From NCBI GenBank assembly GCA_023052935.1, contig CM041297.1, positions 87,043,021 to 87,107,020 of the forward strand: a stretch of 64,000 nt of DNA, written 5' to 3'. This document shows positions 58,092-61,797 of this stretch, one piece after another (the first letter of the stretch is position 1; every line of letters begins with the position of its first letter). This DNA comes from Piezodorus guildinii (Eukaryota > Arthropoda > Insecta > Hemiptera > Pentatomidae). The notes beneath the pieces were generated by a model. The model was not told the DNA's origin. It made no database searches and worked only from the letters and a program-made list of their open reading frames with translations. Both the position numbers and the translations under genes were made by a program.

Positions 58092-58095
58092 ATAG
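58092..58095. other. Target-site duplication ATAG, left
   Basis: ATAG directly precedes the left LTR and recurs directly after the right LTR (61794-61797). A 4-bp duplication fits Ty3/gypsy integration. Confidence 0.8.
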
Positions 58096-58651
58096 TGTTA
58101 CGGGCTACGGGGTGTGCGAAATGAACTACTCCAGTTTACAAATTACAAATATTTATTAATACAGAAAACACAAAATACAAAGGGATTACTAACCACTATA
58201 TTAACAATAATAATGGAATTACCAGCTTACTACTAAACAGTATACATATAAAATCAGGTATTCCTAACAATTAAACTACTTACGTAAATTTATACAATAT
58301 GCTAGATTTATTCTAAAACTTACAACTATAAGTTATATATAAACTACAGTCTTCTAATTTCCCACCGACCGGTTATCACAATACTGACACACAGTTTCAC
58401 TACACTATCACACTGTCACGAACGGTTCACTGTTCACTGATACATCCCAGATGCTTGTTGAGCCGGATTAAGACTGACTCACCTAGACTCAGGGGACCGC
58501 TATTTAAACCACCGCCGAATCTTCTAGACCCGGGCGCAGGTAGGGTGGTGGGCCTTTCCAGGCACTTCGAGGACTGTCCAGGTCCAGAAGTCTCTAGCCT
58601 CATCTAGGCCCCTCCAGGCGTGGTCCACCCGTCATTGTCTTGACCGTAGCA
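58096..58651 (-). repeat. 3' LTR (556 bp)
   Basis: Begins TGTTACGGG and ends CCGTAGCA on the plus strand, giving TG...CA ends with short inverted termini (TGTTACGG / TGCTACGG). I found no difference from the other LTR on reading through. On the minus strand AATAAA occurs at 58157-58152, a candidate polyadenylation signal. A TATA-like TTTAAATAG lies near 58500-58508. The last ~6 codons of ORF2 and its TGA stop (58634-58632) lie inside this LTR. Confidence 0.95.
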
Positions 58652-60440
58652 CTACCCCCTCCTTAGACGTGCTCTGCCCCAGAGCACAGATTGCAGAAGC
58701 TGAGCGATGCTGATCTTCCTCCGATGTAGGTGTTTTGTCTTTCCAGGGGTTGAACGTGCATACCATTATGATGACTCCAGAGTTGGCGAACGTCTCTTCT
58801 ACAATGTTCCTGACAATCCTCCACTCCAGGCCATCGTATCCACAACCCAACTTCGGGATGGCGAGCTTGGTGACACGCAGTTCCAGAAGCTTTCTCCGCA
58901 GGTCGTCAAGACTCCGGCGCAGTGTGTCGTATGTCGGCTTCTGCTCTGATGAACTCTTGGTAACCAAGTAAAACAGGTGCCGGCCTTCATGCTCTTGATG
59001 GAGAGTCTTCCCAACTCTTGGTCCCTGGCGTTCCAGCTCTTCAATTCCAGCGAACTTCTTCCTGAAGACCGTCGCAATCCCCCGGGAATTCCTCAGATGT
59101 TCGGCGACACAATGTGCTAGAGCATAGTCTACCGGTAACGAGAATATGTCTCTGTAAACTGTCTGCGTTACCCTAAGGGAGTCTGGCGCCTTAGGATGGG
59201 GAGTTAGGTCCTTGTCGGTGAGGTTCCTCACTTGCTGTTCCTCTGTAGGGCCATGGTTTCCCTTGTATGGAGCCAATCGGTTGAAATGGACTACCTTGGG
59301 TTTTCCTTTGGGCTGCTTCCTGATCCTATAGATGACATCATTGATCCTCTTGATGACCTCATACGGTCCGTCCCAGGAGTTTTGAAGTTTCGGTGAGTAG
59401 CCTTGCCTTCTTCGAGGATCGTGTAGCCAGACCAAGTCTCCAGGTTGGAAGCCACCTTTCTCTGCCTTGATGTCGTAACGCTCCTTCATTCTGTCACTTG
59501 CTCCCTGGATGTTTGTGCGAACCTTCTCGTGAATAGTGTTCATTCGCTTCCGTAGGTTCGTGACGTAGTCTTCTCCGGCGACCTCCTCATCAGGCTTGAA
59601 ACCGAATTTCAGATCGCAAGGCAAGCGTAGTTCTCTACCGAACACGACATTGGCGGGGGTCTGCCCTGTCGTTTCATTGACTGAACTACGATAGGCTAGC
59701 AGGAACAGATGAAGATATTGGTCCCAGTCTCGCTGATGGTCAGAAACTACCTTGGCCAAATATCGACCCATCGTCCTGTTCATGCGCTCTACCATGCCAT
59801 CGGACTGAGGGTGAAGAGGCGTCGTTCTGGTCTTCCGTATTCCTAGAGCCTCGCACATCCTGGTGAAGACTGCCGACTCAAAGTTTCTTCCTTGGTCAGC
59901 ATGAAGTTCCATGGGCACCCCAAACCGACTGACGAGCTGCTTCACGAGAACATCTGCAACCGTGGCGGCCTCCTGATTCGGAAGGGCGTAAGCTTCCACC
60001 CACTTTGAAAAATAATCCATGGCCACGAGAATGTATCGGTTGCCATTATCTGTCACAGGAAAAGGGCCAGCGATGTCTACCGCTATTCTCTCGAATGGTG
60101 CTCCTACGTTGTATTTCTTCATAGGTGCCTTCTTTTTCCTTATCGGTCCATTAGAGGCGGCACAAGTTGCACACCGCCGGCACCAATCTAACACATCGTC
60201 CTTGAGGTTTGCCCAGTAAAAGCGTTCACGAACCTTTTCTAATGTCCGGTGAACTCCAAGGTGGCCACCAGATGCTCCATCATGTAATTCCCTCAGTACT
60301 TCGGGCACTTTAATCTTTGGTACGATGAGCTGTAGTCTCCGCTGATCTCCCTCTGTGTTCTCCAATGCTCGTTTCAGCAGACCTTTGTCCAGTAGAATGG
60401 AGTTCCATTGAGCCCAATAGGTTTTTATATTTTTCGACAT
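58632..60440 (-). CDS. Ty3/gypsy integrase fused to a TARG1/OARD1-type macrodomain (602 aa)
   Basis: Residues 47-95 form the HHCC zinc finger (H60, H64, C90, C93). Residues ~110-270 are the integrase core with D122 (VDIAGP), D182 (HADQGRNFES) and E218 (GMVERMN); D182 to E218 gives the D,D35E spacing. Residues 330-394 are a GPY/F module (LVWLHDP ... WDGPYEVIKR ... VVHFNRLAPY). No chromodomain is seen. Residues ~424-563 are a macrodomain of the ALC1-like class: LAHCVAEHLR, GIATVFRKKF, FYLVTK, KPTYDTL and LGCGYDGLEW. Human TARG1 uses K84 and D125 to cleave ADP-ribose from acidic residues; the equivalents K495 and D536 are present. One oddity is Arg430 where the family has Gly before the conserved Asp (D431). 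A ~40-residue tail follows. The frame is open upstream to 60557, overlapping ORF1 in the -1 frame, so it was part of a longer Pol. The ATG at 60440 is only the first Met. No break. Confidence 0.93.
   Translation of the reverse strand: MSKNIKTYWAQWNSILLDKGLLKRALENTEGDQRRLQLIVPKIKVPEVLRELHDGASGGHLGVHRTLEKVRERFYWANLKDDVLDWCRRCATCAASNGPIRKKKAPMKKYNVGAPFERIAVDIAGPFPVTDNGNRYILVAMDYFSKWVEAYALPNQEAATVADVLVKQLVSRFGVPMELHADQGRNFESAVFTRMCEALGIRKTRTTPLHPQSDGMVERMNRTMGRYLAKVVSDHQRDWDQYLHLFLLAYRSSVNETTGQTPANVVFGRELRLPCDLKFGFKPDEEVAGEDYVTNLRKRMNTIHEKVRTNIQGASDRMKERYDIKAEKGGFQPGDLVWLHDPRRRQGYSPKLQNSWDGPYEVIKRINDVIYRIRKQPKGKPKVVHFNRLAPYKGNHGPTEEQQVRNLTDKDLTPHPKAPDSLRVTQTVYRDIFSLPVDYALAHCVAEHLRNSRGIATVFRKKFAGIEELERQGPRVGKTLHQEHEGRHLFYLVTKSSSEQKPTYDTLRRSLDDLRRKLLELRVTKLAIPKLGCGYDGLEWRIVRNIVEETFANSGVIIMVCTFNPWKDKTPTSEEDQHRSASAICALGQSTSKEGVVLRSRQ
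58655..58664 (-). other. Polypurine tract
   Basis: The minus strand reads AAGGAGGGGG, then TAG and the 3' LTR start. This is the expected place and composition for the plus-strand primer of an LTR retrotransposon. Confidence 0.8.
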
Positions 60441-60493
60441 TGGAGCAACATCCTGCCAGCTTGGTCTCCTTTGGCCTGATAGCTTCCATTCCC

Positions 60494-61153
60494 TTATTTG
60501 TTGTGTGTTGGTGGCATCCCAGCATTGGCGGAGGGAATGGTGTTGTGAGGGCTTCTCTCAGAGGGTTGGTCGGTGTCGATTGTCGGTGGGTTGCTCATAC
60601 GTTCTTCTAGAGCTTCTATTCTTACCCTAAGTTCATTTTCTACTGAATCGACTTTTTCTCCTAATCTAGATTCTACATCAGCTAACTTATTATCTACACT
60701 TTCCATTAACTTAGTTTCTAAATTGCCTAACTTAGCCTCCAATGTATTTTTAACAGTACTTAATTCATTACCTAACTTCTTTTCTACATTACCTAACTCA
60801 TTTTTAACAGTACTTAACTCATTACCTAACTCATTTTTAACAGTACTTAACTCATTACCTAACTCATTTTTAACAGTACTTAACTCATTACCTAACTCAT
60901 TTTTAACAGTACTTAACTCATTACCTAACTCATTTTTAACAGTGCCTAATTCAGTTTTAAAAGTTGCAGACAACTTACTGAAGTCATTTTCAAACGTAAT
61001 CTCGTCTGGATTTTCCCCTGAATCAACAAAAAATTGGCGCAAGCGTTGTTGCAGTACCGATTTCGTTCCGGAAGTATCCAGATCTCGTTCTTCTAACTCC
61101 CGTCTTAAGTCTGCAACTTTTAAATCATTCAGTCTAACACTCTGAGAAGTCAT
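60494..61153 (-). CDS. ORF1: SAP domain plus 11-residue-repeat coiled coil (truncated Gag, 219 aa)
   Basis: The ATG at 61153-61151 is the first after the primer binding site, with a 63-nt leader. Residues ~9-42 (LKVADLRRELEERDLDTSGT, then KSVLQQRLRQ) fit a SAP motif, a helix-turn-helix that binds DNA, often at A/T-rich scaffold regions. Residues ~60-186 are a long charged coiled coil. Residues ~68-140 contain about six copies of an 11-residue unit (ELGNELSTVKN) encoded by a 33-bp tandem repeat. Hendecad repeats favour a straight, nearly untwisted coil. Residues 187-219 are a Pro/Ser-rich linker ending at TAA. No capsid fold or zinc knuckle is present; both would have followed and are lost in the internal deletion. 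It may still oligomerise and bind nucleic acid, but cannot form particles by itself. The 190-codon plus frame opposite is a shadow. Confidence 0.82.
   Translation of the reverse strand: MTSQSVRLNDLKVADLRRELEERDLDTSGTKSVLQQRLRQFFVDSGENPDEITFENDFSKLSATFKTELGTVKNELGNELSTVKNELGNELSTVKNELGNELSTVKNELGNELSTVKNELGNVEKKLGNELSTVKNTLEAKLGNLETKLMESVDNKLADVESRLGEKVDSVENELRVRIEALEERMSNPPTIDTDQPSERSPHNTIPSANAGMPPTHNK
60774..60945. repeat. 33-bp minisatellite within ORF1
   Basis: About five near-identical 33-bp copies (ACAGTACTTAACTCATTACC then TAACTCATTTTTA). Period 33 keeps the frame and encodes the 11-residue coiled-coil unit. Little divergence between copies suggests recent slippage expansion. Confidence 0.9.
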
Positions 61154-61216
61154 TTTTCACACAGTAGCCCAATAATTACAAAAACAAGAAAACCAAAATT
61201 ATAACCATTTACAATG

Positions 61217-61234
61217 ATCCCACTTCTGACACCA
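61217..61234 (-). other. Primer binding site, tRNA-Leu
   Basis: The plus strand reads ATCCCACTTCTGACACCA, identical to the 3' end (with CCA) of animal tRNA-Leu(CAA) as I recall it. The minus-strand RNA would therefore pair with all 18 bases. It lies 3 nt inside the 5' LTR, the normal position. Confidence 0.88.
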
Positions 61235-61237
61235 AAT

Positions 61238-61793
61238 TGTTACGGGCTACGGGGTGTGCGAAATGAACTACTCCAGTTTACAAATTACAAATATTTATTA
61301 ATACAGAAAACACAAAATACAAAGGGATTACTAACCACTATATTAACAATAATAATGGAATTACCAGCTTACTACTAAACAGTATACATATAAAATCAGG
61401 TATTCCTAACAATTAAACTACTTACGTAAATTTATACAATATGCTAGATTTATTCTAAAACTTACAACTATAAGTTATATATAAACTACAGTCTTCTAAT
61501 TTCCCACCGACCGGTTATCACAATACTGACACACAGTTTCACTACACTATCACACTGTCACGAACGGTTCACTGTTCACTGATACATCCCAGATGCTTGT
61601 TGAGCCGGATTAAGACTGACTCACCTAGACTCAGGGGACCGCTATTTAAACCACCGCCGAATCTTCTAGACCCGGGCGCAGGTAGGGTGGTGGGCCTTTC
61701 CAGGCACTTCGAGGACTGTCCAGGTCCAGAAGTCTCTAGCCTCATCTAGGCCCCTCCAGGCGTGGTCCACCCGTCATTGTCTTGACCGTAGCA
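61238..61793 (-). repeat. 5' LTR (556 bp)
   Basis: Same length and, by eye, the same sequence as 58096-58651. On the minus strand a TATA-like TTTAAATAG lies near 61650-61642, the candidate promoter. The GC-rich 150 bp upstream of it (61651-61793) would be the U3 region. Confidence 0.95.
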
Positions 61794-61797
61794 ATAG
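61794..61797. other. Target-site duplication ATAG, right
   Basis: Matches 58092-58095. Confidence 0.8.

Follow-up and report, generated by a model that had tools for sequence, protein, structure and literature searches.

A TARG1-class macrodomain, predicted to remove ADP-ribose, at the Pol end of a Ty3/gypsy retrotransposon family in Piezodorus guildinii

Poly(ADP-ribose) polymerases (PARPs) answer DNA breaks, modifying both proteins and DNA ends. The macrodomain enzyme TARG1 takes ADP-ribose off Glu and Asp residues (PMC8501950). It also acts on phosphorylated DNA ends that PARP3 or a mutant PARP1 has modified, a reaction that needs D125 (PMC5725667), and K84 is required against thymidine-linked ADP-ribose (PMC8501950). 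A survey describes TARG1 as only occasional in invertebrates and TARG1-like homologues as present in many viral genomes, few of them with the full set of catalytic residues (PMC4245714). Among retroelements, some fish epsilon-like endogenous retroviruses are described as having extra open reading frames (ORFs) for macro domain proteins (Basta et al. 2009, cited in PMC4977317), and a wasp Ty1/Copia element as carrying a virus-type SF1 helicase fused ahead of its integrase core (PMC5563155). Here, we analyze a 64,000-nucleotide stretch of the Piezodorus guildinii genome (the window; assembly GCA_023052935.1, contig CM041297.1, forward-strand positions 87,043,021 to 87,107,020), in which a Ty3/gypsy retrotransposon on the minus strand encodes an integrase followed by a TARG1-class macrodomain. 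We predict that this Pol-end macrodomain is an active ADP-ribosyl hydrolase that likely strips the integration complex and its DNA ends of ADP-ribose added by PARP1, and we assign this reading a probability of roughly one-half.

An earlier note on this DNA, made from the sequence, had proposed that a single uninterrupted 602-codon frame (58632-60440) encodes a complete Ty3/gypsy integrase and, behind it, ~140 residues that match TARG1 from end to end. The frame was confirmed, on the minus strand, and Pfam searches together with direct reading of the residues in its product (P0001) bore out the H2C2 domain, the D,D35E catalytic core, and the C-terminal module, which we take to be of the GPY type. 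Structure prediction had been suggested as a check: the predicted macrodomain superposes on human TARG1 at 1.0 Å over 141 gap-free residues, with 38% identity. In this comparison and in the alignment, K495 and D536 coincide with the catalytic residues K84 and D125 of TARG1, as had been claimed, and the D-K catalytic pair of TARG1/ALC1-like hydrolases is present. TARG1 is the nearest fold; MacroD-type viral structures are not the closest match. The first reading thus stands for the domain class, the integrase anatomy, and the two catalytic residues, and the removal of ADP-ribose is carried forward as a prediction. The internal deletion of the window copy and a second Pol lineage with the domain elsewhere, both described below, had been missed.

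The fusion recurs throughout the host genome (1.2 Gb, 434 contigs). The 602-residue query retrieved 73 genomic matches (best 73 of 5949 candidates), all stop-free, and a macrodomain-only query retrieved 150 (best 150 of 550 candidates), all ≥99% identical and stop-free; both counts cover the best-scoring copies. Many of the family's copies sit in open frames of 1444-1860 codons, and upstream pieces of two such copies contain SAP and aspartyl protease domains (L041) and reverse transcriptase (RT) and RNase H (L002). Assembled from these two copies and P0001, the Pol order of the family is protease, RT, RNase H, integrase. Among the best 40 of 1652 long terminal repeat (LTR) candidates, 17 elements had both LTRs, comprising 15 of 6.5-6.7 kb, one of 4.3 kb, and the window copy of 3.7 kb. 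Older copies are 97% (L042), 92% (L045), and 89% (L043) identical over their aligning parts. Because the best-scoring copies are near-identical, stop-free, and in many cases part of long frames, the integrase-macrodomain fusion is the ordinary Pol end of a recently spread, many-copy family. A chance fusion, or the readthrough into an unrelated fragment that the earlier note had considered for a domain found in this single copy, is ruled out by the 150/150 scored genomic matches and by ten Pol records with the macrodomain behind the integrase. Nineteen copies picked via their LTRs (all 17 with paired LTRs and 2/6 unpaired, the other 4 being left out) were all stop-free and retained both catalytic macrodomain residues (K495 and D536) as well as the D, D, and E of the integrase, which settles the concern that catalytic residues might be lost in most of the family.

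Relatives outside this genome came from three protein searches, each with limited protein length. The macrodomain lies behind the integrase in Pol proteins of 1132-1826 residues (P0127-P0136), and P0002-P0005 are fragments; one of these, P0004 from Callosobruchus, has RT and RNase H, with integrase not among its listed Pfam domains. Short records from Macrosteles, Nilaparvata, Brassicogethes, Gonioctena, Pyrocoelia, Callosobruchus, and Aromia, annotated as OARD1-like, macro domain-containing, or hypothetical, were also retrieved, not each of them necessarily fused to an integrase. A Holotrichia record (P0005) brings the named insects with relatives to eight. Identity to P0001 was 69-93% for the integrase (11 records) and 49-82% for the macrodomain (longer records). 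The catalytic K was kept in 25/25 lineage macrodomains and the D in 24/25 (N in Holotrichia), a few rows being near-duplicates, and K495 was among the 22/152 alignment columns that were fully conserved.

A tree was built from 43 rows, comprising 25 lineage proteins (15 of them longer and 10 short), 16 cellular OARD1 proteins, P0137, and P0006. A branch with unstarred support of 91/87 separated the 25 lineage macrodomains from the cellular OARD1 proteins and the two outliers. Selection of the short rows, from the best 120 of 2872 hits, was made by eye, as was that of the cellular rows; P0007 and P0008 were removed because of internal repeats. Because they fall within the retroelement lineage of the tree, some OARD1-like insect genes (Macrosteles, Nilaparvata) appear to be retroelement pieces and not host repair genes. 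We note that P0128 and P0132 are labelled Erysiphe pulchra and P0134 Klebsiella pneumoniae, on contigs of 5.4-6.5 kb; these labels are probably contamination.

A second architecture is found in P0137, a distant Ty3 Pol (1437 residues; six member sequences on three contigs), in which RT and RNase H (331-686) are followed by a TARG1-like domain (724-869) and then by an integrase whose zinc domain starts at residue 1076. The P0137 integrase is 23% identical to that of P0001 and its macrodomain 46%, while its RT is 44% identical to that of P0134, compared with 72-80% within the main lineage. By sequence comparison, the TARG1-like domain sits at two sites in two Ty3 Pol backbones. P0006 (585 residues) has a macrodomain at its end, a start that is seemingly an integrase tail, and a very long branch, with no Pfam integrase at E values up to 0.1; as a third architecture, it is suggestive only. 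We tentatively propose that at least two Ty3-type Pol lineages took up a TARG1 hydrolase, on either side of the integrase, as an integration machine with its own eraser, and that removal of PARP marks may be an unrecognised step of insertion in these hosts.

The position of the domain also bears on whether it reads ADP-ribose and does not erase it. By binding ADP-ribose or poly(ADP-ribose), a reader could serve as a tether between the integrase and breaks or PARylated chromatin, a chromodomain-like choice of site, and the C terminus is where chromodomains sit. ALC1 belongs to the TARG1 class and is a reader (PMC10789625). However, the domain of P0137 precedes its integrase, and the catalytic K and D are kept almost throughout the lineage, as counted above. 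ALC1 is listed without hydrolysis of ADP-ribosylated DNA and TARG1 with it (PMC5725667). We consider a reader unlikely.

The predicted eraser would act on marks made by host enzymes. A PARP domain search of the genome yielded four exon-size matches at two places (7/7 candidates scored), one piece being nearest to PARP1 and the other nearest to tankyrase; PARP1-like and tankyrase sequences are thus present in the host, known as exons and not as intact genes. None of the matches was nearest to PARP7, PARP12, PARP13, or PARP14 in this exon-level search, in which divergent genes may be missed. Host OARD1 was not found with a lancelet OARD1 query (best 150 of 506) or a 73-residue mussel OARD1 piece (best 150 of 486), whose rows showed 38-50% identity; element copies filled these searches and introns split genes, so absence is not implied. 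Its use as a yardstick was abandoned, since 16/16 compared loci (L031-L040, L042-L047) turned out to be element DNA, matching at 89-99.6%.

The same host matches weaken the analogy, drawn in the earlier note, with viral macrodomains that counter host PARPs, as PARP1-like and tankyrase exons were the only ones found. Under such a counter-defence, the domain would work in the particle or the cytoplasm, stripping ADP-ribose from RNA, from Gag or Pol, or from proteins of host defence. Similar folds do occur in arthropod-associated viruses: a BFVD search returned Kadipiro virus VP8 as its top row (35% identity) and thrips flavi- and virga-like viruses at ranks 3 and 4, and parallel capture by arthropod-associated RNA viruses is possible. 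Behind the macrodomain, 7/25 lineage proteins (P0003, P0019, P0045, P0132, P0133, P0134, and P0135) show a CCCH zinc-finger pattern, which is absent from the window family; CCCH zinc fingers often bind RNA. Greater variation of the macrodomain, documented below, would also fit conflict. Nevertheless, two lineages place the domain next to the integrase end of Pol and not in Gag, and we regard counter-defence as unlikely. A scan of IMG/VR with the macrodomain alignment confirmed 96/115 pattern matches, of which 80 were kept; tblastn with the P0001 integrase or a P0137 RT piece matched 0/80.

Returning to an eraser acting at integration, we start from what sequence and model show (an in-frame fusion, a TARG1 fold with its D-K pair, a family that spread recently, and PARP1-like exons in the host genome) and infer an activity, a substrate, and a benefit as follows. 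The free ends and gaps that arise from integration should activate a PARP1-like enzyme. Staying with the integrase, the macrodomain would reach the ends of the cDNA and the gaps at the target site, where PARP1 would be switched on, and, as TARG1 does, would hydrolyse Glu/Asp-linked and DNA-end-linked ADP-ribose. With these marks removed, nearby histones, the DNA ends, or the integrase itself could stay usable, and signalling from the breaks could be damped until the element is fully inserted. To our knowledge, the effect of PARPs on retroelement insertion has been little tested; a predicted eraser joined to an integrase would give a natural handle on it.

Several points weigh against this proposal. 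The D-K pair is an imperfect marker of activity, some ALC1-like relatives hydrolysing without it (PMC10789625). Cleavage of Pol may separate the macrodomain from the integrase, and a structure model of all 602 residues was too poor outside the macrodomain to give their relative geometry (predicted template modelling score, 0.34). In P0137, about 200 residues lie between the macrodomain and the integrase zinc domain. The macrodomain tree, which rejects neither a grouping of the lineage with P0137 nor one of the lineage with both P0137 and P0006, does not show independent capture by P0137. On the host side, 2/4 PARP exon matches contain stop codons, from intron edges or decay.

Selection among the 19 LTR-chosen copies belongs with these points. 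Integrase variants comprised 24 silent and 8 changing ones, a ratio of nonsynonymous to synonymous polymorphism (pN/pS) of 0.10, while the macrodomain had 4 silent and 8 changing (pN/pS, 0.63; Fisher p 0.016). Constraint is thus weaker on the macrodomain than on the integrase, which counts against strong constraint across the domain. The macrodomain tolerates or favours more change, be it through relaxed need or through conflict with a host factor, two causes that so few sites do not separate. A first selection test (30 loci, nearly all changes silent) was discarded because its loci had been ranked by protein score. The higher ratio is also what would favour a passenger, that is, a captured piece of a host gene without a function of its own. 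We consider a passenger very improbable: the active site is kept across the lineage despite the divergence of the macrodomains, relatives occur in eight insects, a second Pol lineage carries such a domain, and catalytic conservation above background is seen in part, K495 being one of the fully conserved columns.

The window copy has the hallmarks of a Ty3/gypsy element, with a 100% identical LTR pair and a short target-site duplication (Table 1). Comparison with L041, which opens with the same Gag start, and with L002 shows that an internal deletion has removed the central part of Gag together with protease, RT, and RNase H. Pol sequence fills all 1500 upstream bases in 27/30 loci from the 602-residue query, the exceptions being the window copy (L011), L008, and L022. 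The latter two have one common deletion junction, other than that of the window copy; their open frames of 1070 and 1080 codons suggest a deletion lineage keeping most of Gag, the integrase, and the macrodomain in one frame. In the window copy, the Pol frame ends with its stop codon within the 3' LTR, and the 602-codon match of L002 also runs into the 3' LTR there, leaving no space for an envelope gene, and none was found downstream of pol in these two copies. After the SAP domain, the Gag start contains a near-identical repeat array with a spacing of 33 bases, or of 21 and 12; its length may differ between copies. Elsewhere in the window, a 421-codon minus-strand frame at 2-1264, open at the window edge, resembles the first ORF of a non-LTR retrotransposon.

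Table 1. Features of the retrotransposon copy in the window, in window coordinates
Feature	Position	Strand	Remarks
Whole LTR retrotransposon	58096..61793	-	3.7 kb; LTR pair, CTAT on either flank
5' LTR, 556 bp, TGCTAC...GTAACA	61238..61793	-	556/556 bases match 3' LTR
3' LTR, 556 bp	58096..58651	-	Final Pol codons and stop within first 20 bases
Target-site duplication CTAT, 5' side	61794..61797	-	Read from sequence
Target-site duplication CTAT, 3' side	58092..58095	-	Read from sequence
Candidate tRNA primer-binding site, just inside 5' LTR	61216..61234	-	Read from sequence; putative assignment
Candidate polypurine tract, within Pol frame, adjoining 3' LTR	58652..58664	-	Read from sequence; putative assignment
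Likely Gag start, 219 codons, SAP and coiled-coil-like repeats	60494..61153	-	Pfam SAP, E 1.8e-12
Internal deletion junction, Gag start joined to Pol just before integrase	60499..60502	-	L041 gag piece ends, L002 pol piece begins
Integrase and TARG1-class macrodomain (P0001), 602-codon open frame	58632..60440	-	Equals Pol end in long-frame copies
Integrase H2C2 zinc-binding domain, residues 40-97	60150..60323	-	Pfam
Integrase catalytic core (rve), residues 115-211	59808..60098	-	Pfam
Integrase C-terminal SH3-type module, residues 334-392	59265..59441	-	Pfam
TARG1/ALC1-class macrodomain, residues 419-567	58740..59186	-	Sequence and structure comparison
K495 codon, counterpart of TARG1 catalytic K84	58956..58958	-	Alignment and structure comparison
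D536 codon, counterpart of TARG1 catalytic D125	58833..58835	-	Alignment and structure comparison

Among the open-licence papers listed by our searches (titles and abstract starts), we found no report of a macrodomain fused to a retroelement integrase, which is weak evidence of absence; passages of PMC7729036 and PMC10221186 contain nothing on retroelement macrodomains. The domain described here resembles human TARG1 (also OARD1 or C6orf130) in fold and D-K pair, but TARG1 is a free cellular protein of ~150 residues, whereas the present domain stands at the end of Pol in a retroelement. With chromoviruses the element shares an extra chromatin-linked module at the integrase C terminus; theirs is a chromodomain and this one a predicted enzyme, and the 7 Pfam families matched by P0001 at E values up to 1 include no chromodomain. 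The macrodomain of DarG, from the DarTG toxin-antitoxin system, is a bacterial antitoxin and 21-26% identical. RNA-virus macrodomains (alphavirus nsP3, coronavirus Mac1) offer the likeness of a mobile parasite with an ADP-ribose eraser. The fish epsilon-like endogenous retroviruses are likewise retroelements with a captured macrodomain, but they are vertebrate retroviruses with separate ORFs, and the passage of PMC4977317 that cites them mentions neither integrase fusion nor class nor active site. In the wasp element, too, a foreign enzyme domain is fused beside the integrase of an LTR element from an insect, but there a helicase is paired with Ty1/Copia where the present family pairs a macrodomain with Ty3/gypsy. 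Among the sources considered, the macro domain ORFs of fish retroviruses and the wasp helicase fusion are the nearest precedents.
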